NCBI GenBank assembly: GCA_037043015.1
Contig: CM073321.1
Location: forward strand, 2,795,001 to 2,859,000
Source of the DNA: Bryum argenteum
Lineage: Eukaryota > Streptophyta > Bryopsida > Bryales > Bryaceae
DNA length: 64,000 nucleotides
Reading direction: 5' to 3'
Every line of letters starts with the position of its first letter. The stretch's first letter is position 1. The notes beneath the pieces were generated by a model, which did not search any database, had not been told where the DNA came from, and was given only the letters and a program-made list of their open reading frames with translations. Both the position numbers and the translations under genes were made by a program. Positions 17,501-58,620 of this stretch are shown piece after piece.

Positions 17501-18079
17501 AAGCATGAATCAAAGCATATGTCAACCCCATCTTGCGCATCATCCGGGTAGCTGCATAATGAGACTCTGGTAGGGTTTTACCTCGAGGAAGGAGCTCCTT
17601 CAGTAGCACAAGTATCTCGTTTGTATAGCTCGTTGAAATGCCAAACGCAGTAGAGAGGTTCAGCAACAATAAAGTGGCAAGTAGTGATGTCGTCGATGAA
17701 CCTGGATATAGGGGTGATTGTGCTCCTGCCATAAAGTCCTCATCTGGTTCATCTTCAAACTCGGCTCCAATTGCTGCCGCTTCCTCTTCCTGCACCGACC
17801 CGACTGGATCGTTCAAGATATCATCGGCAAGTGGGTCGTATCTTTGAAAACACTCTGTGATCATCTGCATCAGATCCACTTCGGGTACTGCGGCAGCTGC
17901 ATTGGATGGCCCGGCTTCAGGAGGAGGGTTCTCGAATCTAGCTTCCGGGTCCTCTACACGATCATCATGAGGAGGATTGTGGATGGTAGGTGCAGGGTCG
18001 CGGAGGACATCTGCAGGGTCGTCGATCGCTGCTGCAACGTCGGCCTCAAGAGGATGGTCCGGATCGTCATAACAATCCT
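14524..18079 (-). pseudogene. TNP2-type CACTA transposase gene
   Basis: This is the catalytic transposase of En/Spm elements. The coding region begins in this window at an acceptor near 18079 (DCYDDPDHP...). The N-terminal exon ends at about 16530 with LYRLPYWE. It holds the transposase_21-type core: LALDGVNSYSN, LNYNLPPWLVTKTF, IPGKESVTANNIDVYL, LLWCIHDFPAYG and a CPEC. A roughly 100-bp intron follows, then SLMIRHLLDPMNCEKN, then a frameshift near 16245-16265. The DUF4218-like part (IHLVQQLRICGPVHNRWMYP) ends near 15515. After another intron, the exon from about 15365 carries the DUF4216-like part (VLYCKWVQ, DEYGFTLVNF). A shift at a five-C run near 14687 leads to the end at 14524. The first exon(s) upstream of 18079 were not identified. 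The breaks imply loss of function. Confidence 0.88.
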
Positions 18080-18410
18080 GAGTAAATAAACCAACTATTT
18101 TCAATCACAACGGATCCAAGACAGTAACGAAGTTTACGACTTGTGACTAGAATCAGTCATTATTTTCATAGATATGACAGAGTGTAGTCATAGTATTGAG
18201 GAGAATCAAACTTGGCGACTATGAGGAGTGACATATCACAAATATGTGACTAGAACTAGTCATTATTTAACAATGATTGGTCAAGCATTCCAAAGCGTTA
18301 GTGCTTGTCTTAACGGGTACATGTGTACAGACAAATATTTACTTCCCGACCCTGTATTCTGCAAACAACTCGTCCCCTGGAACTATATCCCTTAATGCTA
18401 TCGTAATTAC

Positions 18411-29873: not shown

Positions 29874-30096
29874 TGAGATTCAATAGAGGGAGAGAGAGAA
29901 TACACTACACTCAAAGCTTACAAGTAGTAGAGTAAAGAATGATTGAATGAGATACTCACTCATTCCAAGTACTTACTTATATATCCAAGTGAAGGCACTA
30001 AGTACTACAACAAAGATAAGGTTTGAGTGATCAAGATCACTCTACAAAGGATAGACTACTAGAGGACCTTCTCTCTCTACATACGATAAGGCTTTA
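29874..30096 (-). repeat. Copia 3' LTR, outer part
   Basis: This matches 58250-58480 of the other LTR, starting TGAGATTCAATAGAGGGAG. It ends in AAGGCTTTA, the left copy of the MULE target duplication; the intact LTR reads AAGGCTCTA at this place. Confidence 0.85.
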
Positions 30097-30140
30097 GGGA
30101 CGTAGCTACGGTGTGAGCAGAGAGCGGTGAGCGGTGAGCG
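30097..30140 (+). repeat. MULE left terminal inverted repeat
   Basis: The sequence begins GGGACGTAGCTACG and contains GTGTGAGCAGAGAGCGGTGA followed by GCGGTGA. It pairs with 53270-53314 in reverse complement with one mismatch in the core. Confidence 0.8.
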
Positions 30141-30580: not shown

Positions 30581-33500
30581 CTACTCTCTAACTTGGTCTA
30601 GGATTCCCCTCTCTAGAATGTTTTTCACCTCGTTGAAACTGAGGGTGGGCGCGTGGATGAAGAGGTCTCTATCAATATCAAATTTGCATACCAATACTAA
30701 CACGAAGTATAGGTGCTTGCAATGTCTATACGGTTCGCCTTTTCATCCTAACTTAGCTATGGTTTTTTTGAACACCGGGCAAGAACACTCAGGGTTCTCA
30801 CTGAGAGATAGTTTATGGATAGACTCTGAATCTGACTCCAAAGCAACGATACATCCAAAACCAGGTTGTGGTATCATGGTCACCTCGAGTATTTTTGCCT
30901 CCATGGCACGAGCTGAATCAATGTTCTTCATGTGCTTCGGAGTCACAGCCTTGATGCGTCGAAGAACTTTAGACCTGCGTGATTTGGGGTACAGATCAGC
31001 CTTGTCCGGCACAGGAATATGTGACAAGTCTCTCGGTGGCGCAGAAGTATTGAATGTGCGGTTGAGAGGAAGGCGTTCCTTTTGTGGGAGCCGAAAACCC
31101 GCATTCTCCAACGCCTCAATCTCGTCCACTGTCAGATTGGTCCCGATCTTCACGGGCCAAATAGAGGGAATAGGCGGTCGACCTTGTTTCCGAGAGAACG
31201 GCTCAATCCATTTACGACGACTGCCCTTCACACAACGCTCAATGTCGTCTGGACAAAAGAAAAACTGATCAGTTTTTTTTGGACCCTCTTGAGGACGCTG
31301 CCATACTCCGGTGTAAGTTGGAGCTGCGGTCGCCTTTCCGTTTTGGACAATGCGGGATTCGCATTTCTTCCTGGTCTTAGCCATAATACCCCAACAAGCC
31401 TTGGATGAGGATTCTTTCAAACGAGCAATGTGCCATAGACGCTCATTCACTCTCGTCTCTTGGATAGCAATGACGCGCTGAATACTGGGTCCTAGAGAAG
31501 AGGACGGTTCCAGCGGTTGCTCTTGAACTTCATCCTCTTCGTGGATAGGACTGAGATTCCCAGCAAGAGCTCGTGTGACTCTTCTGCCTATTCGAGAGCG
31601 TGAGTAACTCACGGTGTCAGGTCGATGAGTTTCATCTTCAGCACCAATGGGAACATCAGCCTTACGTTTCCTAGAACCAAAAATCTCTGCCCCCTCCAAG
31701 TGGGCGTCACGCGTACAGTAAGCTTCTGCTTCAGGGAAGTCCATAACGGCCTTGTTGAGGCAAGATGGATTGCCGGATCGATTAGCCCGACGTTGAGCGG
31801 TATAAAGATGCTGACGAAGTTCTTCTACGGATGGTCCTGATCCACTTGCACCGCCTTTGTTGAATTGGTGGTAGCCGACCACTTGGAGGAATGCCCGAAC
31901 GTAGTCGTCAACGGCTGCGACGTAGAGATCCCTACCCTTATTGCCAGACGCTAGCAACCACTTGTTGTGGATTGACTCCGCAAGATTACATGAAGGCATC
32001 TCTGCGAGTTCTTCTGCCGAATATTTTTTTTCCTGCAATGATCAAACGTATTAGGCCTTTATTACTAATTTGAATTTGTACTTAATACAGATTGGAAGTA
32101 TATAAATGAACATAAAAATCAACTATTACTATATAAACAAGAACTGTTAATTTCTTTGGTACTGTCATAACATTACAGAAGCTACCATAGAGCATGAAAT
32201 CAGCACAATTATTGCAAAGAAATAGTACGCTTACTAGTTCCATAAATCCTCCCCATTGTCTGTATCTAAAGTGCCAGTACGCAAGCCAATGACCCAAGTG
32301 TTCTAAACCAACTTTGGAGGTGGCCTTCGAGGATGCCCACCATGCTCTTATAGCCCAATATCGGGTCTCAGCCTCTTCCATGATGCGCGCATCCTTATAC
32401 TGCTTACAGAGAATCCGGTGTTGGCCTTGCAATTCGGGCACAATGTATTGTTTCGTATGTTTCTCAAGAGACTGCGTCCAATGGAAATAACATGTCCGTT
32501 CCCGACCTTCTATGGGGATGACAGGGTTCCCAGAGCCGTAGATGATGCACACAGCGTTCCAATTGGCTTGAGCACTATCAGCCATAAAACCTTGGAACTG
32601 CGGCTTGGGTACTCCGTTCCTCGCCATCACATGATTAAGGTTCTTGTAGAAGACGAGTTGAGCATCTTTGTCCTCTGATTGGAAATCACAACATGCAATG
32701 GTTAGAATGCGTTGGTAACGTGAGTCGTACACGTGGCAGGCCATGGTGGTCCAATCCGTAACGCGGTAGACATGGTCAAACATCATCCAGGCGTGGGCGA
32801 GATTTCCTCCAGGCTGCATACGGCGAACCAGATCAACACCGGTACTGGGGCCGACCTCCGACATTTTGAATATGAAGACTTTCTCGGATTCGTCGCCTTA
32901 GCCACGGAACATGTTGCGTTGCACATATGCCCAATTGCTGAGACCTCTGAGCTTTGTGATCCCATCGAGAATGCCATACCTACGCAAGTACTTGAAAGTG
33001 TAGATACGATTCCACATACTTGGAGAGTTTAACTCTTTGCATTGTTCAAAGACAGGTTCTAGCTGCTGAAGAGAAAGATTGCCGGTTTCGGGGTCACCTT
33101 CGTCACGGAGAAGTAAGTTACCTAACAAGTCTTTGCTGGTTTCCATAACTATTTTGGAAACGGTTGCGTGAGGGTTACGGTCAACATGCTCTTCTAGTAA
33201 CTCATCTATTTTTTCCTTACACATCTATAATCTCCAACTTTGACAGGGTGCTCGTGGGTTCCTATATGGACACGTGCACGCTCCTGACAATCCTCTCCAA
33301 CTACGTAAAAGATCTTCGCAGAACAAGGCGCAACACAAACAGGAGGTTGTTTGCAAAGCTTACAGACCAACGTCGAGGTGGGTGGGGGCGATCCGCCTAC
33401 CGAGAATGGGTCTTTGGTAATGCCTTCAAACTCCACGTCGTTTACTCCAGCGACTCGATCAGGTCGTTGCAAGAAGTCGCAGTCTGGGTTGTGGCACTGT

Positions 33501-34353
33501 AGATGTCCTACACAGTTGGAGTATCGGAAAGACAACCCTTGCGTATTGCTGATGTTGGTGGTCATCGTCCTAGTCCACACATGACGGTCGTACCGTTTAT
33601 CCATCCCCTCCATGGACTTCGCAACCTTGTGAGTTGCAGACGGCAGAGTTGGCGGAAAGATGAAGAGTACATCGCCATTGAATGACGGAGGCAAGAAAGA
33701 TACGTTGACGGTGCGGATGGTTTTGAAATCAATTTTTTTGAGGAGAGTCTTGCTACTGGGCATACTAGCGAGGTTGCAGAGAGATGGAAGAATTTTTTTG
33801 GGTCTCACAATTTGCGATGAAACTAAAGAAGGAGGGGTGGCTCTTAGATAGTTATCCCTAACAAGAGGTGGCAATGGAATATCAGACGTCAGACGACATG
33901 GTTGCAGAGGAGACTTCTTCTCGTCTTCTGATGAATCCGATATGTCAATGGTGACTTCGAGACCTGGTTCGACCTTGACACGAGTAAGAGCTGGAGCAAC
34001 CGTGGAGATAGTAGAAGAACTACGTGGGGTCAGGAGAACTGTTGAGGAGTTCATGACGGACTCTGTCAAGCCGTAGAGGCGATACTTTCCAGCTCAAAGC
34101 TTCCAGATTGTAGTATTGTTCTCTAGGATGATTGGATCTACGACCATGGAGTACTGAACATGATTAGTATCAGGTTCTAGAACTTCTCTCTCTAACCACA
34201 GGGAAGATGCATCGTAGCCGAATCGAATTCCAAGCCACGATGCACTGATGTCTACGACACCTTCAAGCCCTACGGCCATGCAAATGGGAACAAGTGCTCC
34301 TTGTGACAGAATCTCAACAATGTCTGCGGCAATGGGTTCAGTGGACGAGGAAG
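30581..34353 (-). pseudogene. MULE transposase gene (zinc finger, DDE core, SWIM finger)
   Basis: The start ATG at 34353 (MASSSTEPIAADIV) lies downstream of a TATA-like CTTATAAAC near 34430 on the minus strand. A WRKY-GCM1/FLYWCH-like finger follows (CHNPDC, CKLC, then VHIGTHEHP, about 33250-33480). The DDE-type core (about 32300-32830) has MMFDHVYRVTDW, FMADSAQANWNAV, TCYFHWTQ and EEAETRYW. An intron lies at about 32036-32250. The last long exon ends in a SWIM finger, CSCPVFKK then HCKH. The transposase would cut and join element ends. Disruptions: TGA at 34094-34096, a frameshift near 33215, TAA near 32897, and TGA at about 30735 within the SWIM finger. It is divergent to the gene at 34864. 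Confidence 0.85.
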
Positions 34354-34863: not shown

Positions 34864-37800
34864 ATGGACGCGGTGAGCTTGGGGTCCGAGAGATCCAGTG
34901 ACAGTGTGCCTAAGAAGAAGAAGAGAAGAGGGGGTACTCGTTTTAGTAATACGAAAGCACGCAAACGAAGTGCATTGCAAAAGGTGGGTGCGTCTAGGTC
35001 AAGTGGAGATGAGGGAGGCCCTGCTGATTTTGATTTGAACAATGATGAACTCGGGCCCCATTATAGGAGGAATCTGAAAATGCGGTCGATCAATCTTGAC
35101 ACAGTGATCGAGATTAACGAGAAAGACACTGGTGAAGATGAGAACAAATTCAAGAGATTCATAGATGAGCAAGAGCGCAGTAGAAGTGGATCGACATCCA
35201 GCGAATCTCTATGTTATTACATAGGAGGTGATGAGATTGCACAGGATTCCAAGAAGCAGGTACGCTAGTATTCTTGAGTTTGTGCTATTTAGTTATTGCA
35301 GTTTGAGTTTACTGAGTTGAATGTTTGTTTACAAGGTTGATGCCGATGAAGGTCCCAAGAACGATGAGGTAGATGAAATAAGTTTTGACAATTCGGACAA
35401 AAACTTGAAGGATAGTGATGAGAACGAGGAGCAAATGGACGAAAAGAAGGCGTTGGTAGATGTTGGAGAGAATGAAGATACCATCGATCGAATTATAGAG
35501 GAGGAGGTAAATGATATGACGTTTTTCCTAAGTGTCATGAAGGAGTCAGGGCACATTTTAGCATTCACCTCGATAGATTAGAGACGTGATTATGTTTGCA
35601 CTAAGAAAATGTGACCTAATATTGAATAAGTGATTGATTGGTTTTCGTACTTGTAAATCATGTGAGTTTTGAATGCGGTACAAGTGTCAAGTCTCGTGAA
35701 TAAAAGAGGGCAAATATTCTAACATAAAGGATCTAAGGGTATATCCCCAAGCGGGTACGGGTATACGAAGCGCCGACGGGTATCGGGGTAAGAACCCCCG
35801 GCCCGGGCAGCAGCGACGGCGGTTACGGGGTAAGAACCCCGGCCCGGCAAAGAGCCACGGCTGGTACCGGGTGAGACCCCGGCCAGGCAGCAGCGCCGGC
35901 GGGTACCGGGTGAGACCCCCGGCCCGGCAAAGAAGCCGGGCGGCGGGACGGGGTGAGACCCCCGGCAAAGCAGCCACGGGCACGGGTGAGACCCCCGGCC
36001 CAGGCCGCATCGCCGGCGGGTACCAGGGCGAGAACCCCCGGCCCGGAGTGAGAAGCCCCCGCCCCGCCGTTCGGTGAGCGGTGACCGCGTCGTGAGCTTG
36101 TCGCTGTCCGTCTCTCTCCGCTCCCTCTCCGGAGGCTTCTTCCCTGTCAAATCAGCTGCCTTTGCGGCGCATTGCTCAATTTAACCAGGTGATGCCGGCA
36201 CGTTCGTCAAATGATCCTGGGTAATTTCTGAAATGGGAGGTCCTCCTTTGTGCGCCGCGCAAAATCCTAGAAATTGAATGAGGAGCCGCCGATGAAGCCT
36301 CAGATAAGCTTGGCGATCGATTTGATTGTGAAAAGTCATTAGGAGAGATGCCTGACAGAAAGAGTGACAATTTCGATTGTAGCTACCAGAATAGAATGGA
36401 CGCAATTAGTGAAGATGCTTCCGCTGCACTAATACGGCGTACTTGTTGCTATCAACAACTCCTTTCCTGTCTATGTGCAGTTCGGTTTGAAGGAAGGTGC
36501 TACAATGGCAAACTTGGGCGTTGGTGAGGAGATCACACTGCAGCGAGAAGAGGAGATCAGAATGCAGCGAGAGGGAGAAGACGTGGAGAAGGAAAGAGAC
36601 AATGTGAGTACTGATTCCTCGACAAGCCTCTTTTCTGAGTTTTACAGGGAATACGCTTTTCAATACGCTCCAGGGAAAGAATTCAAGACTCGTGAAGAAA
36701 AGGAGGCGTGGTTTGCGAGGGGCTTCAAGGTATGAATTATCTACTTGACAAATCTTGAATTTGCTACTTCTGAATGCCGAGGAATCTCAGTCCTTTCTCG
36801 GGAGAGTACGAGTTCGTTGTTTCTGTCCATGGGACTTCTCTGGAGAGTGAATATTTTTAGGGGAATTTTGGCCCTTGCAGTGGTCCTAGTGTTGTAGCGG
36901 TGTTTTGTTCTCTACGGGGTCGGCAGCCTCCCTCAGACGCTCCGCTCAGAGCCAGGTGATTGGACGCCAACATTCCAATTCCAATTCCTGTGCGTTTCAG
37001 TCGATGTGAATTTGGGTGAATCCCCGGCCCTCAGTGGTCCTCGTGATGTCGATATGTTGTGGCTCAAAGGGGGTCGGCACCCTCCCAATGCTGTGGTCCT
37101 CGTGATGTTCAGATGTTGCTCGGGAGGTTTGATTTGTTTTTCTGTTTCAATTCCTCTTTCATTCTTTCGCTGTGAATGGCGGCTCAATCCCCGAACCTCA
37201 GAGGTCCTCGTGATGTTTAGATGTTGTGCCTCGAATGGGCTGGCCTCTTCCCGATGCTGTGGTCCTCGTGATGGCTGATGTTGTGCCTCGAAGGGGCTGG
37301 CCTCTTCCCGATGCTGTGGTCCTCGTGATGGCTGATGTTGTGCCTCGAAGGGGCTGGCCTCTTCCTGATGCTGTGGTCCTCGTGATGGCTGATGTTGTGC
37401 GTCGAATGGCCGACACTCTCCGAATGCAGTGTGACTGGCACCATCGTGGGCTTCAGTGTGTCTGTGATCTTGCGTACCTTAAGCTTTTTGAGACACGAAT
37501 TCCCGAAGTGGTCATCGGTGTGTTAGACTTTCGTGGACGAAAGTATGGCAGGGCCTTGGGAGGTTTGTTTTTTTTTTTCTCTTTCAATTCCTCTTTCAAT
37601 CTTTCGCTGTGAATGGCGGCTCAATCCCGGAACCTCAGAGGTCCTCGTGATGTTCAGATGTTGTGCCTCGAAGGGGCTGGCCTCTTCCCGATGCTGTGGT
37701 CCTCGTGATGGCTGATGTTGTGCCTCGAAGGGGCTGGCCTCTTCCCGATGTTGTGGTCCTCGTGATGGCTGATGTTGTGCCTCGAAGGGGCTGGCCTCTT

Positions 37801-40800
37801 CCTGATGCTGTGGTCCTCGTGATGGCTGATGTTGTGCGTCGAATGGCCGACACTCTCCGAATGCAGTGTGACTGGCACCATCGTGGGCTTCTGTGTGTCT
37901 GTGATCTTGCGTTCCTTAAGCTTTTTGAGACACGAATTCCCGAAGTGGTCATCGGTGTGTTAGACTTTCGTGGACGAAAGTCTGGCAGTTGCTCGGGAGG
38001 TTCGAATTTTCTTTTCTGTTTCAATTCCTCTTTCATTCTTTCGCTGTGAATGGCGGCTCAATCCCCGAACCTCAGAGGTCCTCGTGATGTTCAGATGTTG
38101 TGCCTCGAAGGGGCTGGCCTCTTCCCGATGCTGTGGTCCTCGTGATGGCTGATGTTGTGCCTCGAAGGGGCTGGCCTCTTCCCGATGTTGTGGTCCTCGT
38201 GATGGCTGATGTTGTGCCTCGAAGGGGCTGGCCTCTTCCTGATGCTGTGGTCCTCGTGATGGCTGATGTTGTGCGTCGAATGGCCGACACTCTCCGAATG
38301 CAGTGTGACTGGCACCATCGTGGGCTTCTGTGTGTCTGTGATCTTGCGTTCCTTAAGCTTTTTGAGACACGAATTCCCGAAGTGGTCATCGGTGTGTTAG
38401 ACTTTCGTGGACGAAAGTCTGGCAGTTGCTCGGGAGGTTCGAATTTTCTTTTCTGTTTCAATTCCTCTTTCATTCTTTCGCTGTGAATGGCGGCTCAATC
38501 CCCGAACCTCAGAGGTCCTCGTGATGTTCAGATGTTGTGCCTCGAAGGGGCTGGCCTCTTCCCGATACTGTGGTCCTCGTGATGGCTGATGTTGTGCCTC
38601 GAAGGGGCTGGCCTCTTCCCGATGCTGTGGTCCTCGTAATGGCTGATGTTGTGCCTCGAAGGGGCAAGCCTCTTCCTGATGCTGTGGTCCTCGTGATGGC
38701 TGATGTTGTGCCTCGAAGGGGCTGGCCTCTTCCCGATGCTGTGGTCCTCGTGATGGTTGATGTTGTGCCTCGAATGGCCGATGTCGGACTGTCACATCCC
38801 TTTCCAAAGGATGCCCGAACACCGTGGTGAGCCGAGAGGACCCTGGGAGTGACGCCCCGGGCTTGGCAAGAGACAAGGTGAAGTGACCAAGGGGAGTCCC
38901 GAGCAAACAGCACGCAATGGCGTTGTACTCGGGACGAACTTGGTCGCGTGTCTTACATGGTTGGAAACCTTGTTTGAGCACGCATCCATGGGTCCAAAGA
39001 ACGCGCAATTTGGAGTTGTGAGTCATGAGATATGACTCTCCAAAGTTGGAGCGCGTTCCGGGACACTCCGGGACTCGGGAGTGTTGCCTTTCGGGACTCA
39101 AAATGTCGTCCTTCTTGGATGGCGGCATGTTGCATGTCTTTGGAAAGCTCTAGACAAGAGCTTTCCAAAATGCTAAGGCTCGTGAGGAGCAAAGCAATGC
39201 TTTGGGAGATATGGCTCTCCAAAGCATCGGGACTTCGGGACTCCGGGACTGCTGCCTCCCGGGACTCCCGAATGTTCAGAGGAGCATAGCTCCCACATGA
39301 AAGCGCCGATTGGGACAAGGGAGGAGTCCATCGACATCTACTCAAAGAGTAGATGTCGAAAATGGGCTCGCACGTCCCATTTGGATAACTGAGCTACAAG
39401 TTAGCCCGAGAAGAAGATACGGCCCGTTTTTGAGGCTAAGGCAAAAACGGGTGGTCTTCCAAAACAAAAGTGTGTCACGGAAGGCCCCTCAACACAAGAG
39501 GGGGGGGCCTACCGAAGACTCCAGAGAGTACTATGAGGAGGGGTGGTCTCCCTCCTCACTTGCACATGGTGCCTTGAGGAGCCGGGGTGGCTCCAAGGGG
39601 TGAGGCTTGGGATGGGGCCTCACTCCCGCACCTTGTGGAAAGTAGAGAGTGCTTTGGAGCCTCTCTAAACATGGGGTAGGGAAGTGTCCCTCTCCAAGTT
39701 AATCCCCGTGATAAGTAGTGCCGGTTCCCGACAGTGACCGGGAATGGCTCAAGAAGGTGAGGCATGGAAAGGAAGCCTCACTCCTACATCTTGGGCATTG
39801 TGGGATTCTCTTGAGCATCCCGCAACATTGGGTTGGAAAGAGTCCCGCTCCAAACTAGTCCCCGGGAAAACTAGTGCCGCATTCCGGGAGGATTTCCGGC
39901 AATGTTCCAAATGAAGTGAGAGACAAGAGTGGAAGGGAGACTAGTGGGAAGTTGGACAATGGATAAGGGCGGTTAGCTCCGGGGGTGAGTAGTGCCACCC
40001 TTGGGAGCTTGGACATGTGTGGAAGGCCGCCCCGTGCCACCAAGTGGCATGCCCATGTGTTTTGTGAGAGTTCCGGTTTACGGGTTCCGGGTAATGAGTT
40101 GGGGGAGTCAAGGTGGGTTGGACACCTTGACTAGAAATGGTGCTAACATTGTGTGTGCTTGGCATGTGCACTGTTAGCTAAGTTGTGGCCGGTTGCTACC
40201 AACAAAGTAAGCCGTGATTCCGCTACCAAGTAAGGCTTCCTTGAAGAAAAAGAGTTGGGAGTAATTAGGGCCGCGACACGGACTCCGTTTTTTCGATTTT
40301 TGGCCATTATGTTCTAATGCGCATTAAGAATAAGTATAGTGTCTAGAATCCGACCTATGTATTTGCTAAGCCGTATAGTATAAGGCAATTACGTTTTTAC
40401 AAATAAAGGAATTAGTTAAACTCTAGTTTATGTTAAGTAGGACGGATTTGCCAATCCGTACTCTGTCCCCGTACGGCTAGGACATGCTGTCAGAGGACGG
40501 ATTAGGAGTTATGATGGTAGGTGAAGGACGGAGTGGCGAAGAATTTAATAATGGTGAGAAATCTAGAAGGCGACTCCGTACGGAGAGGACAATGATGGCG
40601 GCGGACCATGTCATGATGGTCGGACTTAACTCCGGCCCTCTCGATATAAGGTAACCCGTCCGCCCTTGTCGTCACCTGCCTCCTCGTTTTCTGCGCCCCT
40701 TGTCGTCTTGCGATTCTGTCCTCCGTCTTTCTGCTTTCCGTCCTTAGCTCCGATCCGGCCCACTGGCCGATCTCAGCCCGACGACTCCCTATTTCCTTGC

Positions 40801-43800
40801 GCACTTCTTTCCGATGGCAGGAACGGCGTCCACTTCCGCTCAGGAGCAAGAGGAGCTGAAGATTTCCATCAAGCTCGTGTCGCCGTGTATTCCGATCGAG
40901 GAGGATGAGAAGAAGTCCTTGACGGAAGACCTCAAGAGGATGGGGTTAGCCGGCCTGCTGGATACGCCCTGGGGTTTGCGCGACGCGGAGATGGTGCGCG
41001 AAATCAAGGTCGGCGCGCCAAACCAGTTCGAGGGGACGGTTAGAGGGAAGCCGGCTTCCTGGACGGCCGACCATCGAGAGAGCTGTTCGGCGACCAAAAA
41101 CAACGGAGTAGGGTTATGCGGCCGAAACACAAGTGGGCGAAGAAGGCGTTCACGGGGATCCACACAAGAACAATGGCTACTCGATCGAGGATTGCGGGAA
41201 TCCGAGGAGCGCGCCGTCATCAAGTTCCCCGGCGCCGATCACCCACGGAGAGAAGCCGCACCGGATCACCGTACGGGCCGCCAACACCGCCCCGGGGCTC
41301 CTTGCGCGCGAACGGGAGACGGATCGGGGATGATCATCCGCGACTTAGTCGCCCGGCTTATGGAAAACGTAGGTAAAACCCGTCCTAGCCCTATTACTCC
41401 TTTTCTTTACCACCGCATAAGAAGGAGGAGGTGCCGACGGATGAGGAGGAGTCGAACTATGAGATCGCTACTGTCGCCGCAAAACAACGGCGTGTTCGAG
41501 TCGAGGAGAGTACGGATAGCAAGGCCGTGTACTCGGAAGAGGAGGAGGACGAGGTCGGATCAGTCGAAGGGGACGTTCCACCCGACGCACCAGAGGAGCC
41601 GGCTCCGGAGGCACCCCCACCGCGGACGCGTCCAGAGGTAATCATCCTTCCGTCCCCGTCCCCTCCCACGAATCCGACCGAGGCCGGAACTCAGACTGAG
41701 AGGGGACAACCCTCGAGGCCGGTGGATGAAGGGGAAGTTACGGCCGATTGGGAGAACCCCATGAATCCGAACGACCCCCGACTCCCCCCACCTCTCAGTC
41801 CGTCCGCCAATCACCCGGATCCCATGAGGCGAGCATGGCACCACTTCACGGAAGCCAGGTGCCAGTACTTCCTCTACCAAGGACTGCTGGCGAAGCTATG
41901 CCAAGAATTTGGAGTGAAGACGTTGCTGGAGGTCAAGGCGAAGTGGGAATCCAAGCCGGACGCGGAGCAGTTTCGACAAATGGAGATGCAAGTGACCAAG
42001 CTGATCCTGGAGAATAGACGTCTTCGCGAGACGGTCAGGAGAAGGGAGGAGGAACTCCTGGTCGGAAGGCAGGCCGTAATCACGGCAAACGAGCAGGTCG
42101 TAAAGCTCGTAGAAATTTGCGAGGTTCCGGCCGAGGTACTGCAGAGGGCTAACCTGTTCGAGGCCGGAATCTTGGAGTTGGAGGTTTTCAAGGCGGAGAC
42201 GTTCAAGAAGTTCCTCTTGGCGGCGAAGACGTACGCCACGAAGGTAGAGAAGAGCAACGCCAAGGTCAAGGTGCTGCTCGACGCCGTCCGGGAGCAGATG
42301 AAGGAGGTAGTGATGCCGGCCTTCACTTCTACTCCGGCCAAGACACCGCGGCCGGATACAGCGAGGATGGATGCTGGGCCCTCCAGTCCGACCGACACGA
42401 AGGGCAAGGCGAAGGTGAAGACGGAGTCGGATGCACCCGCCCCAGCAGACTCACCGGCCAAGAACACGCGCACCGCTAAGAGGAAGCTCACGGCCGAAGA
42501 ATACGAGAAGTCTCCCGGGGCGCAGAAGCTCCACGACATCGGCCTCGAGCACTCCGAAGAGGAAGAATTGAAGAGCGGAGACGAGACCAACTCCAGCGAG
42601 GACGAATACGTGATAACGGATACGGGCAAGAGAGTGAAGGCAGGACCTATCGCAGCGACGCCACTGAAGCGGCCGAAGCACGGAGTTAGTTCGCGAAGGA
42701 AGAGGTAGGACGTCTTTGAGGACGGCTGTCACAGGACGGCCAGGGTTAGGAGGTCGGATTGGTATCCGTCCTAGGCCAGTATAGTGTTTTCTTTTTGGGG
42801 GAATGCGTGCCGCTTTTTGAGGAGTAGGCCTGATAGGCCGGTGCCGCAATCCAGTTAGGGATCTAAGTCGTTGACTTAGAAGTACTTATAGGTGGGAGTT
42901 TTGTCCACCAAAACATTCCTTGCTTGAGTGTTAATCGAACCTTCTTATGCGCATATTCGGTGTGATCATTTCCCTGTCTCCTTTTCAGTTGAGTGCTTGG
43001 AAAGCCGGATCTACCTTTGTGTGTTGTGAGTTGGGAGTTAGGAATCCGGATTCTTTGTTAGATCGTTTCTGTGGAGTTGAAGCCGGGTTAGGCGTATTCT
43101 TGAGTGCCTTGTGTCTTGAACTGGTCTAGATGTCTGAAAGAGGGAAACTGCTGTGGTAAACACTTACGGTCTGGGAGGTTCTGGGAGTATAGTGTGTGAG
43201 GACGGATTCCAATCCGGCCTCCTGCTGCCATCGACTTGGGTTCCTCTGTAGCCTCAGAGGACGGATTAAGCGCAGTACGTGACCAGAATACGTGTAGACG
43301 TCTTCTAGCCGGATTCGGAGCTCTTGGAGTCTGTCATTGTAGTAAGGGTGATAGGGTAACCAGGACGGCCTGCGTGACCTGCTAGTTCGGACGGATAGGA
43401 CGAATTAGTTGTGAGGACGTAATGTGTGCCTTAGTGTGTGTGTGTGGTTGAGTAGAGTCTAAGTGTGGAAGTTTCCGCCACGGTAAACATAAGGGAAAGA
43501 GTCTTTGTGCATCCCCTCTTGCAAAGGGATACCCTTGCCCTGTAAGGCTAAAACATAAGTTGGGACTAGGAACGTTTCTGGGTTTGGTTGTTTTAGCACT
43601 GCTTGTCTTGGTCACTTCACAGAATCCCAGGAACGATACACGAGTCACCTCAACTCGGGTTTTACACCAATAAACGTGTAAGGGAAGATAAAGTGAATAC
43701 ATGGCATCCGACAGCCGACACCCTCCGAATGCAGTGTGACTGGCACCCTCGTGGGCTTCTGTGTGTCTGTGATCTTGCGTTTCTTAAGCTTTTTGAGACA

Positions 43801-44817
43801 CGAATTCCCGAAGTGGTCCTCGGTGTGTTAGACTTTCGTGGACGAAAGTCTGGCAGTTGCTCGGGAGGTTTGAATTTTTTTTTCTGTTTCACTTCCTCTT
43901 TCATTCTTTCGCTGTGAATGGCGGCTCAATCCCCGAACCTCAGAGGTCCTCGTGATGTTTAGATGTAGTGCCTCGAAGGGGCTCGCCTCTTCCCGATGCT
44001 GTGGTCCTCGTGATGGCTGATGTTGTGCCTCGAAGGGGCTGGCCTCTTCCCGATGCTGTGGTCCTCGTGATGGCTGATGTTGTGCCTCGAAGGGGCTGGC
44101 CTCTTCCCGATGCTGTGGTCCTCGTGATGGCTGATGTTGTGCCTCGAAGGGCCGACACCCTCCGAATGCAGTTGGACTGCCGTCCTTGTGGGCTACTGTG
44201 TGTCTGGGATCTCGCGTACTTGACGCTTTTTGTTAGACTTTCGTGGACGAAAGTCTGGGAGGGTCTCGGTACCCTGTGTGTGTGATGATGTGTTTTTTAG
44301 CAGAACTGGTTTTTTTTGTATTTTCGTGCAAATTTTTGTCAAGCTTTCGGGCATTGAAGTGGTACTTATGATCTTCTCGGTGCTCTAGTTTCAAATGGGA
44401 TTGACATTCTTCTTAAATAATGGAGTTAAATTTTATTTGTTTAGTTTCTTGTTCCTGAACGCTCTCTTAGAGTTGGCTTACTAATGGTTTTGCGTGGTAT
44501 TGCAGGATCAGTTAAAGCCAGTTGCAGATGATTCAGAAAAGGAATCCGATGCAGATAGCGACCTCTCCTTTTTGAGAGACGAAGTGTTAGCTTACGTTGA
44601 GTCCCGTCGATTAGTAGTAGCTTTGAGCTCGGTTCCGAGAACTCCGTCTCCTCTCACCCCTGTCAGTCACACTTATCGTGTTGACTTTGATCAGGTTGCG
44701 ATTACAAAGCAAATCAAAAAGAATGATGCCAAAGCTAGACGTATCCAAGAGAAAGCAGTAGCTAGAAGTGCACCACGTCGTTCTCCGCGTCTTGCCGCAA
44801 AGTTAAAATTTGTTTAA
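34864..44817 (+). CDS. Charged nuclear-type protein gene, four exons, unknown function
   Basis: I do not recognise the family. Exons, all with GT/AG junctions and one continuous frame: 34864-35259 (basic KKKKRRGG and KARKRS, likely nuclear localisation), 35336-35506 (acidic), 36481-36729 (Glu/Arg-rich helix, then FYREYAFQYAPGKEFKTREEKEAW) and 44506-44817. The last exon has Ser/Pro and a basic tail, SAPRRSPRLAAKLKFV. No premature stop was found, unlike its neighbours. The third intron is 7.8 kb because it holds a minisatellite and the nested element at 38782-43713. The next gene starts 139 bp downstream on the same strand. An upstream start at 34777 is possible. It may be an accessory or DNA-binding protein of the MULE. 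Confidence 0.6.
35745..36070. repeat. GC-rich tandem repeat in an intron
   Basis: About seven imperfect units contain GGGTACCGGGTGAGACCCC and CCCGGCCCGG-like words. The tract is far more GC-rich than its surroundings. It lies in the second intron (35507-36480) of the charged-protein gene. No coding value is apparent. Confidence 0.7.
37190..38781 (+). repeat. 57-bp minisatellite organised in 437-bp higher-order units
   Basis: The basic unit (GATGCTGTGGTCCTCGTGAT... through ...CTGGCCTCTTCCC) recurs every 57 bp in blocks of three or four. The blocks alternate with a spacer holding GACTTTCGTGGACGAAAGTC, giving a 437-bp period. Equivalent points lie at 37226, 37663, 38100 and 38537. Because 57 is divisible by 3, the array gives long repetitive open frames on both strands; these are not genes. 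The array lies in the third intron of the charged-protein gene. Confidence 0.9.
38790..40278 (+). mobile_element. Solo LTR, family 2 (copy C)
   Basis: The 1489-bp segment starts TGTCACATCCC, ends GGCCGCGACA, and is flanked by CGGAC at 38785-38789 and 40279-40283. It is the inverted relative of the LTR at 49498-50816. It includes a hairpin, CGACATCTACTC then AAA then the complement (about 39332-39358), and many GGGACTC words. No coding region. It landed eight bases inside the left end of the nested element at 38782. Confidence 0.9.
40814..42708 (+). pseudogene. Retroelement-type accessory protein gene with coiled coil
   Basis: The start ATG at 40814 opens MAGTASTSAQEQEELK. The first exon shifts frame several times between about 41070 and 41340: pieces of sense such as GYSIEDC, EERAVIK, HRITVRAANTAPG and MIIRDLVARLMEN lie in alternating frames. 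An intron at 41369-41421 (GTAGGT...AAG) is followed by a clean exon to 42708. That exon has acidic and Pro-rich parts, a long coiled coil (about 41880-42310) and a basic/acidic tail (PLKRPKHGVSSRRKR). The layout resembles gag-like or accessory proteins of plant LTR elements, but I do not recognise a defined family. The 5' exon is clearly decayed. Confidence 0.5.
43714..44260 (+). repeat. Minisatellite, right part
   Basis: This continues the array interrupted at 38781. It has three 57-bp units and two copies of GACTTTCGTGGACGAAAGTC (about 43830 and 44236). It shows that the array was split by the insertion at 38782-43713. Confidence 0.85.
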
Positions 44818-44956: not shown

Positions 44957-47900
44957 ATGAATCTTGATCAAGTCGAACTTCTTCAAGATGCAGTGGATAC
45001 CCGGCCTTTTCTTAATCTTCCACAAACGGTATCTTCCGACGGTGACGAACTCTTACTTGATAGTGGCGGATCTGTTGGAGACTTGCGGAATACAGTACCG
45101 GAAGAGACTCCATCGATGATGGATCTCCAAGCTGAAGCAACGCAAGGTCCAGATGGTCACGAGTATCCTTCCGAGGATGATGACACCCCTTTGTCTGGAG
45201 GTGTCACCGTTGGAATCGTCCACATGCCACCTCATCTTGAAAACAAAGATCCGGATTGGAGTGCAAACGAGATGAGAATGATTCATAAAAGTGATTCAAT
45301 TGCGATCATCAACAGGTTGAGATACAAACCTGTGAAAAAGTCCTGCATGGTAATTCCATTGTGTCGTCTTGTTTGTTATCCCAAGGTTCGACCTATCTCC
45401 GAACAAGACGTACGGAAATTGGATAATGAGTTCAACAAAGGCTATCGCGAAGGAGACCGAGTCATGTACGTGTCTCCCTTCGATAGGAAAGGGAGAGAGA
45501 AAATTGTTGACGCCGGAGATGCAGTGTGGACGAATCCACTTTGGAAATCTGCAAATGAAGAGTTTGAGAAGACGTTGCTATCTGATCCGGATCTTCAACA
45601 CTTGAGCGATAAGTACTTCTACGTGTACGAAGGTAACCACCGAGTTACGGCGTGGATGCGTCACATTGAGAGGTACCATAAGATGGAAGCTTCGTGGCAC
45701 ATCTCCGTGGACTGTATCGTACTTGATGCACGAGGAGAAAGCAACCTCCTGCTTGACGCTATGAACGACATAAATTGGTGAGTACTTTACTGATTTTCCT
45801 ATTTGCTCTATTTGTATTTTGAGTAACTTCAATGTTTTTTATGTTTGAGTTCGCTCTACAGGTCAACTGAACATGACCATGTCGAAGACGGGTTGTGTGC
45901 AAAATTGCAGCGCATGAGGAAGTTCGGTAAACTGAAACTTGAGGATTTCAAGGATCTGATATCTCCAGAAGATTACAGAATATGCAAGAACGCAAAAGCC
46001 AAAAAAGATACTTGGTATCCTGTAACAATTGAAGTTTTCGTAAAATTCCTATATGCGGTAAGTTGAGTGTAATGGGTAGGTACTGTGATTCGTTGTATTT
46101 GGGTTTTTCCTCTTTATTAATCCTTCTTATGTTATGTACTGAGGAGATTAGCAAAGGCTTCCGATGACGCTGAGACGAATTACTACGCAACAGTCCCAAA
46201 GGAGAAACAAACAGGACCCGGAGTTTGGAGTGCGATGGATAATGCGATCAAAGCAGAAATTAAGGCCATTCGTGGCAAAAACTTCGACAAGATGGTCGCT
46301 GTAGCAAACCATAAACTTGGGAAAGTATTTGCGAAGGAGGTAGAAAATGCACCCCTTTCACGTATCATATGACTATATTTGTGATCATGATTCATCACTC
46401 GATTCTTACTTGTAAATTACATGTGCAGATTTATTCCCATTACAGCAAGAACCTGAAACCCGATATGACAATAGATCATTTACAAATGGTTGCCACTAGC
46501 AATGTTCATTGCGATTTCAAGGGAAAGTGGCTCCAATGGTGGAACTCATCTGACGATGTTCGACGATCTTTTCGCTTCCCTGATGAACGTCCAATGAAAG
46601 ATAAAGCTCTGGTGGCATTTCTGCATCGCGCATCTCTTTGGGCACAGGTATCTTCAATTTTCTTTACGTGTTGAAAAAGTTTGAGTTCATATGATATATT
46701 CATCATTAACTTGTTTTTTTTTTACAGCTCGAGCATTCACTTCAAACTCAATTGCAAATCCTCATTGACAACGAAAACCTCACCATTGAGTGGTCTAGTG
46801 TTGTCCTAAAGCCATCTGTGTATGTAGAGAAGTGGAGGTTGCTCTTATGGGACAAGGCATTCAACAACTACCTTGGTCCTAATGCAAACCCAAAGTTCAT
46901 CTAAGGCTCGGATCTTCAAAAGATTACCGGGGGCAAAGTTACAATTAAGCGACTTTTATTCCGGTATGTTTTTAATTTTCTCTTCAAAATTATTAAATTT
47001 GGTACAACTTGTTCAATTCACACAATCTGATTTTTTCACACTTTTGTAGGTACTTGAAACAAGAGCTCGTTGCGAAGGGAGCATTAGCTTCGTTCTCTAT
47101 TCCAATGGAGTTCGAGGACATTTCAGTCACGAATAATCCCCGCATTTTTTTCTCCACAGCCCAACAAGAGCGGTTTACCAACTCCCAATTGACGACCGGT
47201 GGATGGTTTCTGGAGTGTGACGACAACTACGTGCACAAGGAGGAGAAGCATCTTCTTCGAAACCTTGCGTCTAACCCAGCTAACTCTACACCAATGGACT
47301 TTGACGACGATGACGATGACGACCTCTCCATTTTACCAGTCGCACCTGATCCAATCTCCTCTCCTTCCTCACCAGTTGCAGTGCCCAAGTCTCGTGCAAA
47401 CAGGAAGAGACGCAACGTTGTTGCAGAGCCAGTTGTAGATCTTGAGCAAGAATCCGAAGAGAATGCTCCCCTCGGAGAAGACATTGCAGGGCCTGAAGAT
47501 GCTGATCTGACTCAGGCTTCAGCGGGAGCCGCAATCAATACAATTCGACGTGGTGCAAGATTGACTCAACTTTCAACAGGTGGACTTACGAATGCTGGGT
47601 CCCCTCCTCAATCATTCACCGTTGACCACAACTCGCAGCAGTCCCCACGTCGCCTTAGCCAGCCAATATTCCCGAGACGCCCTCTTCCAAAACCCAATCA
47701 CATCGGTAGCAGCTCGTCGTCTAAAATATCGGTGACTTTACCTATGTATCTCGAGAAGGGCAACATTGGTGATTTGGTTCACCAGTCATCGAAGACTGCA
47801 AAATGGGATTCGCAAATCCTCGATATCGTCGAGCACATCAAGAAGGTTTTATTTCTTCCATTTGTCTTTCATGAACTTCTTCTTACGTTTTGTACTTCTA

Positions 47901-49240
47901 AATCTATTAGCCACTTTCTAATTTTATACTTGTATCTCAGATTGGAAAAGACCGCAAGTACCCGTGTTCGGCGATGGAGTATAAACCCAAGCATCCAGGG
48001 ATTGATCTCATTTTTGCAGATGCTCCCGAGAACTTGCCTGTACCGGGTGTGTCTCCAATAGAAATTCCATCTTGGAACCGGCGTGACAAAACCTACTTTG
48101 AGAGCCTCTTCGTGTTTGCCGCGTATCATTTGACAAACGTTGGAGCCATTCTTCTGATGTATCCCAAATGTCGCAGAATCGAGCGTACTCTCGATGCCGA
48201 GTCCCATACATATAGTTTTCGTCTTGTTCAAGACTGGTGGGGATATAATCCCCTTTCTATGGCATCTACCGTACCTAAACCGAAAGAGGTACGTATCAGA
48301 ATCTAATTTTCAATTTCGAAATTCTTGGTAATTGCCTTCTTTGCATCTATATTAATGTATCTATACTTGTGTTTTGCAGACTCACTGCTTCCATATCAAA
48401 GTGTATGTTCGCAGAGAGTTTGTTTCGAAGTTCCAAACTCGGCAAGTCGCACACGCATATGCGGGTGTGTCAATCGTACCTGATGAGGAAGACCACCTCT
48501 GTAACTTTGCAGAGAAAGAAACCTTGCGATATCGTCCGGACGGTACGCCGTGGCGAGGCTCACGAGAGAAGGACCCTTCCTTCATTCAATGTTTCGTCGA
48601 TTGTCTCACGGACGAGGGGGGTATAGTCTTCGACTGGAGCGCAAGTACAGGTAAAGTTCCCGTAGACTCTACATTAAAATTTGTTTCTACATTTCGCATT
48701 TTTAACGTGGGCTTCCGATTTTGTAGGTGCATCTGTGATTGCTTGCGCGCGCTCCAACTGACACCTCATCGCTATGGAACCTGACGAAGAGATCTTTAAT
48801 ATTATACTCGCGGATTACAAGAACGGACCTTCCGGTGATGAGGAAAGTGGAGAATCAGCCCCCCCCCGCAGACTATGACTCTGACGAACCGGTCGTGAAG
48901 AAACCACGAAAGTTCATTGGTGCGTATTACCACCTTGTATTCTCTTTTTCAATTTTAAATTACACACTTACAAATTGGTAGGACTGACTTTCTTTGCAAT
49001 TTTAGGATAGCAGGTCTAAAAGAGCGATTGACTCGCAACGCTCATCTCTACGAGAGCCCTCCATCGAAATTCACCCTACCATCGTATGCTGAGCGACTTG
49101 CTCAAGAGTTTGTTCAAGCTCCATCTCCCATTTTGTCTGACACTCCACGTCGACGTTATAGCAAGAGTGTGCTTAAGTTTATAGACTTTGAGGCAGATCA
49201 GTGTGATCAGCACTTTAATGGTACTACACCGTCTACCTAG
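44957..49240 (+). pseudogene. ParB-like domain fused to N4/N6-type DNA methyltransferase-like domain
   Basis: Ten exons with GT/AG junctions: 44957-45777, 45862-46057, 46157-46339, 46429-46647, 46728-46962 (approx.), 47050-47845, 47941-48288, 48380-48650, 48727-48919 (approx.), 49014-49240. Exon 1 (MNLDQVELLQD) ends in a ParB/sulfiredoxin-like fold: MVIPLCRLVCYPKVRPISE, then YVYEGNHRVTAWMRHIE and a beta strand WHISVDCIVLD. Exon 6 is an acidic/Ser-Pro linker with a basic patch. Exon 7 resembles motif IV of amino-methyltransferases (DLIFADAPENLP, for DPPY) followed by AAYHLTNVGAILLMYP. Exons 8-9 resemble motif I (IVFDWSASTG-ASVIACARSN...HLIAMEPDEE, for DPFxGSGTT...GxExD). The order IV then I fits the beta class. 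The catalytic residues are altered. In-frame TAA (46902) and TGA (48759), plus a shift at nine C (48859-48867), disrupt it. Confidence 0.7.
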
Positions 49241-49461: not shown

Positions 49462-51222
49462 CTAGTCGTAGTTGGAATCACTTCCAGAATCACCGCCTGT
49501 CGCGGCCCTAATTACTCCCAACTCTTTTTCTTCAAGTAAGCCTTGGTAGCGGAATCACGGCTTACTTTATTGGTAGCAACCGGCCACAACTTAGCTAACA
49601 CTGCACATGCCAAGCACACACAATGTTAGCACCATTTCTAGTCAAGGTGTCCAACCCACCTTGACTCCCCCAACTCATTACCCGGAACCCGTAAACCGGA
49701 ACTCCCACAAAACACATGGGCATGCCACTTGGTGGCACGGGGCGGCCTTCCACACATGTCCAAGCTCCCAAGGGTGGCACTACTCACCCCCGGAGCTAAC
49801 CGCCCTTGCATATTGTCCAACTCCCCACTAGTCCCCTTCCATTCATGTCTACACTCTCCATTCGGGACATTACCGGAAACCGGCACTACTTTTCACGGGG
49901 ACTAGTTTGGAGCGGGACACTTTTCCAACCCAATGTTTCGGGATGCACACCACAAGCATCCCATAGTGCCCAAGGTGCGGGAGTGAGGCTCCATCCCAAG
50001 CCTCACCCCTTGGAGCCACCCCCGCTCTCCTCGGCACCATGTGGAAGTGAAGAGGGAGACCACCCCTCCTCATAGTACTCTCTGGAGTCTTCGGTAGGCC
50101 CCCCCCTCTTGTGTTGAGGGGCCTTCCGTGACACACTTTTGTTTTGGAAGACCACCCGTTTTTGCCTTAGTCTCAAAAACGGGCCGTATCTTCTTCTCGG
50201 GCTAACTTGTAGCTTAGTTATCCAAATGGGACGTGCGAGCCCATTTTCGACATCTACTCTTTGAGTAGATGTCGATAAACTCCTCACTTGTCCCAATCGG
50301 AGCTTCTATGTGGGAGCTATGCTCCTCTGAACATTCGGGAGTCCCGGGAGGCAGCAGTCCCGGAGTCCCGAAGTCCCGATGCTTTGGAGAGCCATATCTC
50401 CCAAAGCATTGATTTTCTGCTCACGAGCCTTAGCATTTTGGAAAGCTCTTGTCTAGAGCTTTCCAAAGACATGCAACATGCCGCCATCCAAGAAGGACGA
50501 CATTTTGAGTCCCGAAAGGCAACACTCCCGAGTCCCGGAGTGTCCCGGAACGCGCTTCAACTTTGGAGAGCCATATCTCATGACTCACAACTCCAAATCG
50601 CGCGTTCTTTGGACCTATGGGTGCGTGCTTAAACAAGGTTTCCAACCATGTAAAGCACACCACCAAGTTCGTCCGGAGCACGACGCCATTGCGTGCTGTT
50701 TGCTCGGGACTCCCCTTAGTCACTTCACCTTGTCTCTTGCCAAGCCCGGGACGTCACTCCCGGGGTCCTCTTGGCTCACCACGGTGTTCGGGCATCCTTT
50801 TGAAAGGGATGTGACACCGCCGCTGCGATCACCAGCTTCTGAAGTGAATTCCACGAAATCTTCCCAAATCGTCTGGAGAGGCACTATCTCATACTTGTTG
50901 CAGCTGAAGCACCCCAATTCTTGCCCGTCATGTCCTTCAGGTAGTCGTCTCCCTTCTTCCGTGCGATACACCCTGCACACCACGCTTTGTTACAATAATC
51001 ACACGGGATCACAAACTGAATTCCCCCACACCAATTGCATTGCTCATCATCGTACTGGGCGTTCTTCGTGAATACAACGTCGTCCAACACAAGTTTGCAC
51101 GAAATGCATATGCCAACACCGAGATGAGGATGCTCCAACAAACAAGCACGCATTTTTTTCTCCCCACAAGCAGTGCAAGAATACAAATACAAGGGATCGA
51201 AATCGGCCGAATGCCCCGCCAT
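49462..51222 (-). pseudogene. Small ADD zinc-finger (ATRX/DNMT3-type) protein, broken by solo LTR
   Basis: The ATG at 51222 (MAGHSADFD) lies about 95 bp downstream of a TATA-like CTTATATAC on the minus strand. The product is about 150 residues and almost entirely an ADD domain. It has a GATA-like finger (CTAC...HPHLGVGICISC), then a PHD-like part, DEQCNWCGGIQFVIPCDYC, NKAWCAGCIARKK, with the last pair CFSC displaced by a one-base shift near 50910. The tail reads EDFVEFTSEAGDRSGG and meets the LTR at 50816. Beyond 49498 the same frame resumes and stops at 49464-49462. ADD domains of ATRX and DNMT3 read histone H3 tails unmodified at K4. Here it is a stand-alone reader encoded in a transposon, convergent with the ParB-methyltransferase-like gene. 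Confidence 0.78.
49498..50816 (-). mobile_element. Solo LTR, family 2 (copy D), in the ADD gene
   Basis: The 1319-bp segment begins TGTCGCGGCCC and ends GGGATGTGACA on the plus strand. It is flanked by CCGCC at 49493-49497 and 50817-50821. It is the reverse complement of the family at 38790-40278, including the CGACATCTACTC hairpin (about 50247-50275). It interrupts the last codons of the ADD-finger gene. Confidence 0.9.
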
Positions 51223-53314: not shown

Positions 53315-53468
53315 AAGGCTCTAGTGGTCCATCCTTCTCTACACACGATAAGGCTGTTGTGGACAAGCCCTCTCTATCTACGATAAGACTCTATTCATCC
53401 AACCCTCTCCACATACTCTAATCAACTCTAGTTACCCTTAGTAACTACGAGCAATCTAATCTTCAACA
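53315..53468 (-). repeat. Copia 3' LTR, inner part
   Basis: This is nearly identical to 58467-58620 of the 5' LTR and ends ATCTTCAACA (TG on the element strand). A purine-rich AAGTGGGAG directly precedes it on the minus strand (53469-53478), the expected polypurine tract. Confidence 0.88.
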
Positions 53469-58246: not shown

Positions 58247-58249
58247 TAT

Positions 58250-58620
58250 TGAGATTCAATAGAGGGAGAGAGAGAATTCAACACACTCAAAGCTTACAAG
58301 TAGTAGAGTAAAGAATGCTTGAATGAGATACTCACTCATTCCAAGTACTTACTTATATATCCAAGTGAAGGCACTAAGTGCTACAACAAAGATAAGGTTT
58401 GAGTGATCAAGATCACTCTACAAAAAAGGATAGACCACTAGAGGACCTTCTCTCTGTACATACGATAAGGCTCTAGTGGTCCATCCTTCTCTACACACGA
58501 TAAGGCTGTTGTGGACAAGCCCTCTCTATCTACGATAAGATTCTATTCATCCAACCCTCTCCACATACTCTAATCAACTCTAGTTACCCTTAGTAACTAC
58601 GAGCAATCTAATCTTCAACA
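58250..58620 (-). repeat. Copia 5' LTR
   Basis: The 371-bp LTR runs TGAGATTCAATAGAGG...CTTCAACA on the plus strand. It carries the uninterrupted AAGGCTCTAGTGG site where the other LTR received the MULE. Confidence 0.9.

Follow-up and report, generated by a model that had tools for sequence, protein, structure and literature searches.

A gene at 44957-49240 of a 64,000-nucleotide stretch of the Bryum argenteum genome (contig CM073321.1 of assembly GCA_037043015.1, positions 2,795,001 to 2,859,000 of the forward strand; hereafter the window) lies inside a large DNA transposon and appears to encode a single protein in which a ParB-like N-terminal domain is joined to a C-terminal relative of the beta-class amino-methyltransferases. 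Its dispersed copies show long-term purifying selection, and the methyltransferase-like domain carries a recurrent, non-canonical residue at its catalytic motif. We put at roughly 0.55 the probability that this is a selected, transposon-borne protein that binds the DNA of its own element, for anti-silencing or for transposition, without methylating it.

Gene model, copies and selection

Alignment of the window copy with 18 other copies fixes a 10-exon model, with ATG at 44957 and TAG at 49238-49240. Each splice site is retained in most of the 19 aligned rows, some being lost in single copies, and in four rows (L017, L018, L022 and L027) the 3' part of the gene is missing or scrambled. Motifs along the model run from YVYEGNHRVTAW in exon 1 through ADAPEN in exon 7 to DWSASTG and NRHLIAMEPDEE in exons 8-9. 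The window copy itself has decayed at four places: the intron-2 acceptor is gone, exon 5 contains TAA, exon 9 contains TGA, and a run of C in exon 9 is longer by one base. A single row, L024 (C7:7932008-7938008), is fully open, encoding 1167 amino acids with no stop, no frameshift and every splice site in place; L009 is stop-free, yet has lost its intron-1 acceptor. The initial annotation, made from the window's letters, had described a multi-exon gene with three motifs in this order, and the alignment and the open copy bear it out. A predicted model in which both halves form one multi-exon gene is supported.

The genome searched comprises 258.8 Mb in 25 contigs and yields 90 matches to the chlorophyll a/b-binding family, as expected of a photosynthetic plant; its searches scored the best candidates only, so that all copy counts are lower bounds. 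For the ParB-like exon 1 there were 1196 candidates; all of the best 150, which were scored, are matches, at 84-100% identity, and about four fifths of those 150, counted by eye, are free of stops. Exon 8 gave 924 candidates, of which the best 150 were scored. The median ratio of nonsynonymous to synonymous substitution rates (dN/dS) is 0.055 for the ParB-like exon, with a median dS of 1.56, across 154 of the 210 pairs among 21 exons; 20 of these 21 exons were picked as stop-free, and the other 56 pairs were excluded for a dS that was saturated or no greater than 0.05. The methyltransferase region has a median of 0.133 (209 of the 210 pairs among 21 regions), and the part around motif I one of 0.081 (206 pairs). 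Because open copies were chosen, these ratios describe the active lineages, and they show long-term purifying selection on the gene. Ratios so far below 1, together with a methyltransferase profile score far above those of shuffled controls (given below), make the gene more than a product of chance; the possibility of chance motifs, or of a pseudogene without coding history, is ruled out by the open copy and the low dN/dS.

Of the 41 rows that match exon 1 most closely, as counted among best candidates only, 32 lie on contig C1, which makes up 17% of the genome. The excess might reflect local hopping, a burst of recent date or some peculiarity of that chromosome.

The methyltransferase-like and ParB-like halves

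Beta-class amino-methyltransferases carry motif IV before motif I, with (D/N/S)PP(Y/F/W) as the catalytic signature and FxGxG as the S-adenosylmethionine (AdoMet) motif. A search of the genome with the Pfam model PF01555 returned 32 matches, two of which reach the cut-off (26.7-26.8 bits, both family C), and revealed two families, B and C, beside family A, to which the window copy belongs. Six loci of family B were examined (L098-L103), and family C occupies a near-identical pair of places, C4:20.50 Mb and C7:9.88 Mb (L096, L097, L104 and L106), which may be transposon copies or duplicates of a host gene. A ParB-like exon lies upstream in one family-B place and in both family-C places, these being the stretches that were fetched, and the ParB-like domains of the three families are 39-47% identical to one another.

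A profile built from families A, B and C, compared with eight phage and plasmid enzymes, scores 105 over 208 columns (probability 98.5, E 2.6e-15), against a maximum of 20.0 in 60 column shuffles; the family A profile scores 60.2 against the same eight (E 1.7e-8), with a maximum of 17.0 in 50 shuffles and 13.4 when reversed. Family C matches the DNA methyltransferase family phrog_67 with an E-value of 2.1e-10 over residues 2-203. When the whole protein was searched by tblastn against 50,697 phage records, 111 records were hit at E no greater than 10, the best at E 0.004; every one of the 20 matches listed maps to residues 929-1066, and the annotations of 16 name a methylase or methyltransferase, several of the records being near-duplicates. 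Of the 30 records hit in the plasmid search 20 were listed, and 17 of these, with E-values of 0.2 to 3, carry such annotations. The three-family profile and the phrog_67 match bear out the earlier claim of an amino-methyltransferase-like second half: judged by sequence comparison, the C-terminal half is a true relative of the beta-class amino-methyltransferases, with motif IV before motif I.

Motif IV of all three families aligns with DLPY, DIPY or DPPY of prokaryotic enzymes. It reads ADAPEN in family A, where 18 of 20 fetched loci cover the motif, 17 with DAPE and one (L043) with DAPK, and where L026, a further, stop-ridden copy, has VAIE. Family B has ADIPEG in L098 and L102 and ADISEG in L099, the remaining three loci being damaged or unread there, and family C has IDTPFD in both loci. 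The catalytic signature is accordingly not matched in family A (DAPE) or family B (DIPE or DISE), and family C has DTPF. Motif I reads DWSASTG, DWFASTG and DLTASTG in A, B and C, respectively, so that FxGxG is not kept and its final G is retained; GSG has become STG, and the H of HPTQKP is lost. The divergence of the catalytic motifs that had been noted in the window copy thus holds more widely, with DAPE or DIPE standing for motif IV and ASTG for FxGxG. Catalysis needs an aromatic ring at the motif IV position where families A and B have glutamate. Because the glutamate recurs at just this position, it suggests that the function has changed under selection and that the motif has not merely decayed. 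Family C, which keeps an aromatic residue there, may still be an enzyme.

For the N-terminal half, a PHROG search matched phrog_1033, a ParB-like partition protein, in all 21 family-A copies (best E 0.0022), and six other PHROG matches occurred in one copy each. Against six plasmid ParB pieces, hhalign gave a score of 20.6 (probability 2.7), with GNHR aligned to GERR; the maximum of 60 shuffles was 18.06, and two cross-controls scored 15.7 and 12.4. Searches by tblastn with the ParB part found no match in plasmids; in phages one such search hit two records at E 5 and another three at E 7. The presence of a ParB-like domain at the N-terminus is, as a prediction, moderately supported. Two scans of viral contigs with the ParB part gave no relative, and the capture of the gene from a prokaryote or virus, which the initial annotation had proposed, is not borne out. 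Taken as a whole, what that annotation observed is confirmed, and its interpretation is partly supported.

Proposed function, alternatives and known systems

The product would be an accessory protein of about 1170 amino acids, comprising the ParB-like N-terminus, a middle region with an acidic linker, and the C-terminal methyltransferase-like domain. Its ParB-like and methyltransferase-fold domains would together hold the element's own DNA, perhaps at its tandem array of 57- and 437-base-pair (bp) repeats, and the protein would shield the element from host silencing or assist its movement. With glutamate at motif IV in families A and B, the C-terminal domain would most likely read or bind DNA, with no methylation. 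Since in two families glutamate takes the place of the catalytic aromatic residue, we consider DNA binding or anti-silencing more probable than methylation; the earlier suggestion that the protein binds rather than modifies DNA fits the diverged motifs, and to that extent it stands as a prediction. By analogy, the nearest working model for such a function may be the VANC proteins of VANDAL transposons in Arabidopsis, described in PMC10398659 as binding non-coding tandem-repeat regions and removing silent marks. The likeness, a transposon-encoded protein and an element with non-coding tandem repeats, is one of description, and VANC differs in that its anti-silencing has been shown experimentally, according to the same source.

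Several results weigh against a DNA-binding protein of this construction. Strong constraint acts on motif I and on two residues of motif IV, D and P, as would be expected also of an active enzyme with unusual chemistry. Taken alone, the N-terminal part of the family A methyltransferase region scores 23.7 (probability 7), and one of 50 shuffles reached 135, so the identification of motif IV rests on the comparison of A with B and C. The sole Pfam match of the open copy is to N6_N4_Mtase, at 14.7 bits for the whole protein (E 0.03) and 16.4 bits for the domain (E 0.0088), below the cut-off of 26.7 bits. The ParB-like assignment, also part of the initial annotation, stands by the PHROG matches and by a profile score slightly above its shuffles, and not by Pfam: ParB_N was matched by none of the 21 family-A copies and by none of the family-B and family-C pieces, with just unrelated weak matches returned. 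PHROG gave no match for the ParB part of families B and C, a sequence search with the ParB part found no relevant solved structure, and a single-sequence AlphaFold2 model of that part, with a mean predicted local distance difference test score (pLDDT) of 32.8, is too low in confidence for its fold to be read.

The strong constraint on the motifs is also what would be expected if the protein were an active self-marking enzyme, one that used D-A-P-E as an unusual motif IV to place N4-methylcytosine (4mC) or N6-methyladenine (6mA) on its own transposon, the mark labelling or protecting the element. The fetched copies hardly vary in motif I or at the D and P of motif IV, and family C retains D-T-P-F. 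PMC12477816 predicts 4mC or 6mA as the product of a relative in Ectocarpus, and PMC8566409 describes a 4mC methyltransferase active in Marchantia sperm. Against this stand the glutamate in place of the aromatic residue in A and B, the lost H of HPTQKP, the change of GSG to STG, and the report in PMC8885841 that changing SPPY to APPA abolishes the activity of the bdelloid enzyme N4CMT. On balance we think self-marking unlikely, if the least unlikely of the alternatives.

A role purely as a transposition helper, binding ends or repeats and aiding cutting, joining or copy choice with no part in silencing, ranks a little below self-marking in our estimation. Other DNA transposons may have accessory proteins with such a role, and here the gene next to the one presumed to encode the transposase has been maintained by selection in an element of high copy number; however, nothing singles out the ends, and the ADD gene linked to it in part of the copies hints at chromatin. 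Slightly more doubtful again is an elaborate form of anti-silencing by a "pseudo-methyltransferase," in which the ParB-like domain would load on the array and spread, the dead base-flipping fold would read or mask methylation sites, and in some copies the ADD protein would read histone H3, providing the transposon with a chromatin-recognition kit of its own. It is very improbable that a duplicated host gene was merely picked up by the transposon and is useless to it. The element can gain sequence, as the ADD gene in part of the copies illustrates, but three families so divergent in their ParB-like part, with ParB-like and methyltransferase parts together in each where examined, and the very low dN/dS between dispersed copies, argue otherwise.

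Transposon-borne ParB-methyltransferase proteins are already known as a kind, since PMC12477816 describes one in the Ectocarpus element Sola1-1_Ec32 and cites green and red algal cases, as well as Iyer 2011 and Petroll 2025. According to that description, the Ectocarpus protein has 1104 amino acids (1167 here), with ParB-like and N4C/N6A-type methyltransferase domains, and is encoded in a large element of 21.5 kb (18.4 kb here) on the strand opposite the transposase; the Bryum gene shares this arrangement, its ParB and transposase readings being putative. The two differ in that the former belongs to a Sola1 element of a brown alga and the latter to an element with a 9-10 bp target duplication in a plant; the comparison is between descriptions, not sequences. 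The phage and plasmid beta-class enzymes (Pfam N6_N4_Mtase) share the order of motif IV then motif I and homology across the domain, and the Bryum protein departs from them in having DAPE or DIPE for DxPY, STG for GSG, an altered HPTQKP, a ParB-like fusion and an intron-rich gene. Like N4CMT of bdelloid rotifers, it is a bacterial-type amino-methyltransferase relative in a eukaryote, but N4CMT, as reported in PMC8885841, has an intact SPPY and shown activity. MpDN4MT1 of Marchantia is likewise a bacterial-type DNA methyltransferase in a plant; unlike the Bryum protein, it acts in sperm and is described, in the available portions of PMC8566409 and PMC8885841, without additional terminal domains. 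As far as searched, the plant host, the different type of transposon, the DAPE/DIPE motif and the linked ADD gene are new; no report of such a protein in a land plant was among the literature matches listed, in a search that left subscription journals mostly outside. If confirmed, these findings add a plant to the algae in which transposons carry ParB-methyltransferase proteins, with well over 100 scored copies under strong constraint, and provide a case in which a catalytic motif is replaced by a recurrent alternative and not simply lost. They raise the question whether methyltransferase folds serve transposons as DNA readers against host silencing, for which families A, B and C, whose catalytic position holds E, E and F, respectively, form a natural series within one genome.

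The host transposon and its neighbours

That the gene is transposon-borne, as first annotated, is borne out by the ends of the element and by a target duplication that splits a copia long terminal repeat (LTR). Over some 50 bp the two ends are imperfect inverted repeats of each other. The duplication, of 9-10 bp (AAGGCTYTAG), was read in the two copies with both flanks: in the window it is AAGGCTTTAG (30088-30097) and AAGGCTCTAG (53315-53324), with one mismatch, and that of the C1:44.02 Mb copy is similar, also with one mismatch. The joined flanks align over the full length of the second copia LTR, differing by the duplicated 9-10 bp, a few mismatches and a 3-base gap. Coordinates of these and other features are collected in the table.

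Table. Features of the transposon and its surroundings in the window
Feature	Position	Strand	Remarks
Copia LTR, insertion target, left part	29871-30097	-	Remainder 53315-53468; second LTR 58247-58620
Whole DNA transposon	30098-53314	.	Ends within 1 to 2 bp; 23.2 kb including two nested inserts; alignment with two other C1 copies stops there
Presumed transposase gene pieces	30746-34093	-	Open reading frames (ORFs) 34093-33209, 32897-32085, 32041-30746
Non-coding tandem array, 437-bp units with 57-bp repeats	37115-38781, resuming 43714-44270	.	Resumes past nested insert; also in two other compared copies
First nested later insertion	38782-43713	.	Borders approximate (inside array); L029 and L031 continuous without it
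Presumed last exon of another ORF, ending RRSPRLAAKLKFV	44506-44817	+	Upstream of ParB-like exon; ORF and splice-acceptor reading
Exon 1, ParB-like domain	44957-45777	+	PLCR...VRP...GYREGD...YVYEGNHR..AW..I..H...W...V
Exons 2-6, middle region and acidic linker	45862-46057, 46142-46339, 46429-46647, 46728-46963, 47050-47845	+	
Exon 7, methyltransferase motif IV	47941-48288	+	D-A-P-E-N in window copy
Exon 8, PWRGSREKDPSF and beginning of motif I	48380-48650	+	DWSAST
Exon 9, remainder of motif I	48727-48919	+	GASVIACARSN.HLIAMEPDEEIF; TGA and frameshift in window copy
Exon 10, C-terminal tail and stop	49014-49240	+	
Second nested insertion	49498-50819	.	Inverted sequence common with first; compared copy has just 453 bases between window 49497 and 51273
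Start of ADD-domain gene	50911-51222	-	Convergent with ParB-methyltransferase gene; 145 amino acids in other copies

The copy at C1:44.02 Mb is without both nested inserts and measures 18,424 bp. Its minus strand has a 776-amino-acid ORF followed, further downstream, by another ORF that contains a CxC...CxH (SWIM-like) stretch, both of which we read as transposase; the ParB-methyltransferase gene is on the opposite, plus strand. The 776-amino-acid ORF has no Pfam match, and the downstream ORF matches Pfam SWIM weakly (E 0.54). Target duplications of 8-11 bp are given in PMC6446971 as the range of Mutator-like elements. The length of the target duplication, the ends and the SWIM-like stretch point to a putative Mutator-like element, though no transposase profile matched.

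The two nested inserts have stretches of 0.3-0.85 kb in common (38790-40278 and 49498-50819), alike at 96-97% in inverted orientation, and a related stretch lies near copy L032; to judge from these alignments, the shared sequence is a young repeat. Long inverted arms had been considered as the ends of the element and were rejected, as the arms belong to the two later inserts, which the compared copies lack. The ORFs at 40748-42708 were likewise rejected as part of the element, since they lie inside the first nested insert.

Residues 13-121 of the ADD protein encoded at C1:44.02 Mb match ATRX ADD structures (E 1e-14); the Pfam ADD_ATRX score of this protein is 20.0 bits (E 6e-4), below the cut-off of 25.7. 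At E 1e-10, the window copy has the gene, and so do the six closest copies. The tails of seven further copies gave no match; five of these tails align directly to the element's last kilobase and two to its last 86 bases only. An ADD query of the whole genome gave 294 candidates, the best 150 of which were scored; by eye, at least 20 of the matches lie about 1 kb past a scored exon 8 in the opposite orientation, spread over C1, C3, C5, C6 and C8, and others are not so placed. Several ADD genes are accompanied by a second ADD-like ORF about 2 kb away and 36-40% identical (for example, C5:22033080 with C5:22031087; C10:4215377 with C10:4217582), with no scored exon 8 there; by their sequences, these paired ORFs are a further dispersed ADD family.

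Elsewhere in the window, a Transposase_21 (tnp2) gene (E 5.5e-51) lies at 15510-18104 on the minus strand. A protein-kinase-like ORF at 6025-6696 on the plus strand has similar sequence past the transposon end in the tail of L025, and it may be a dispersed repeat gene.

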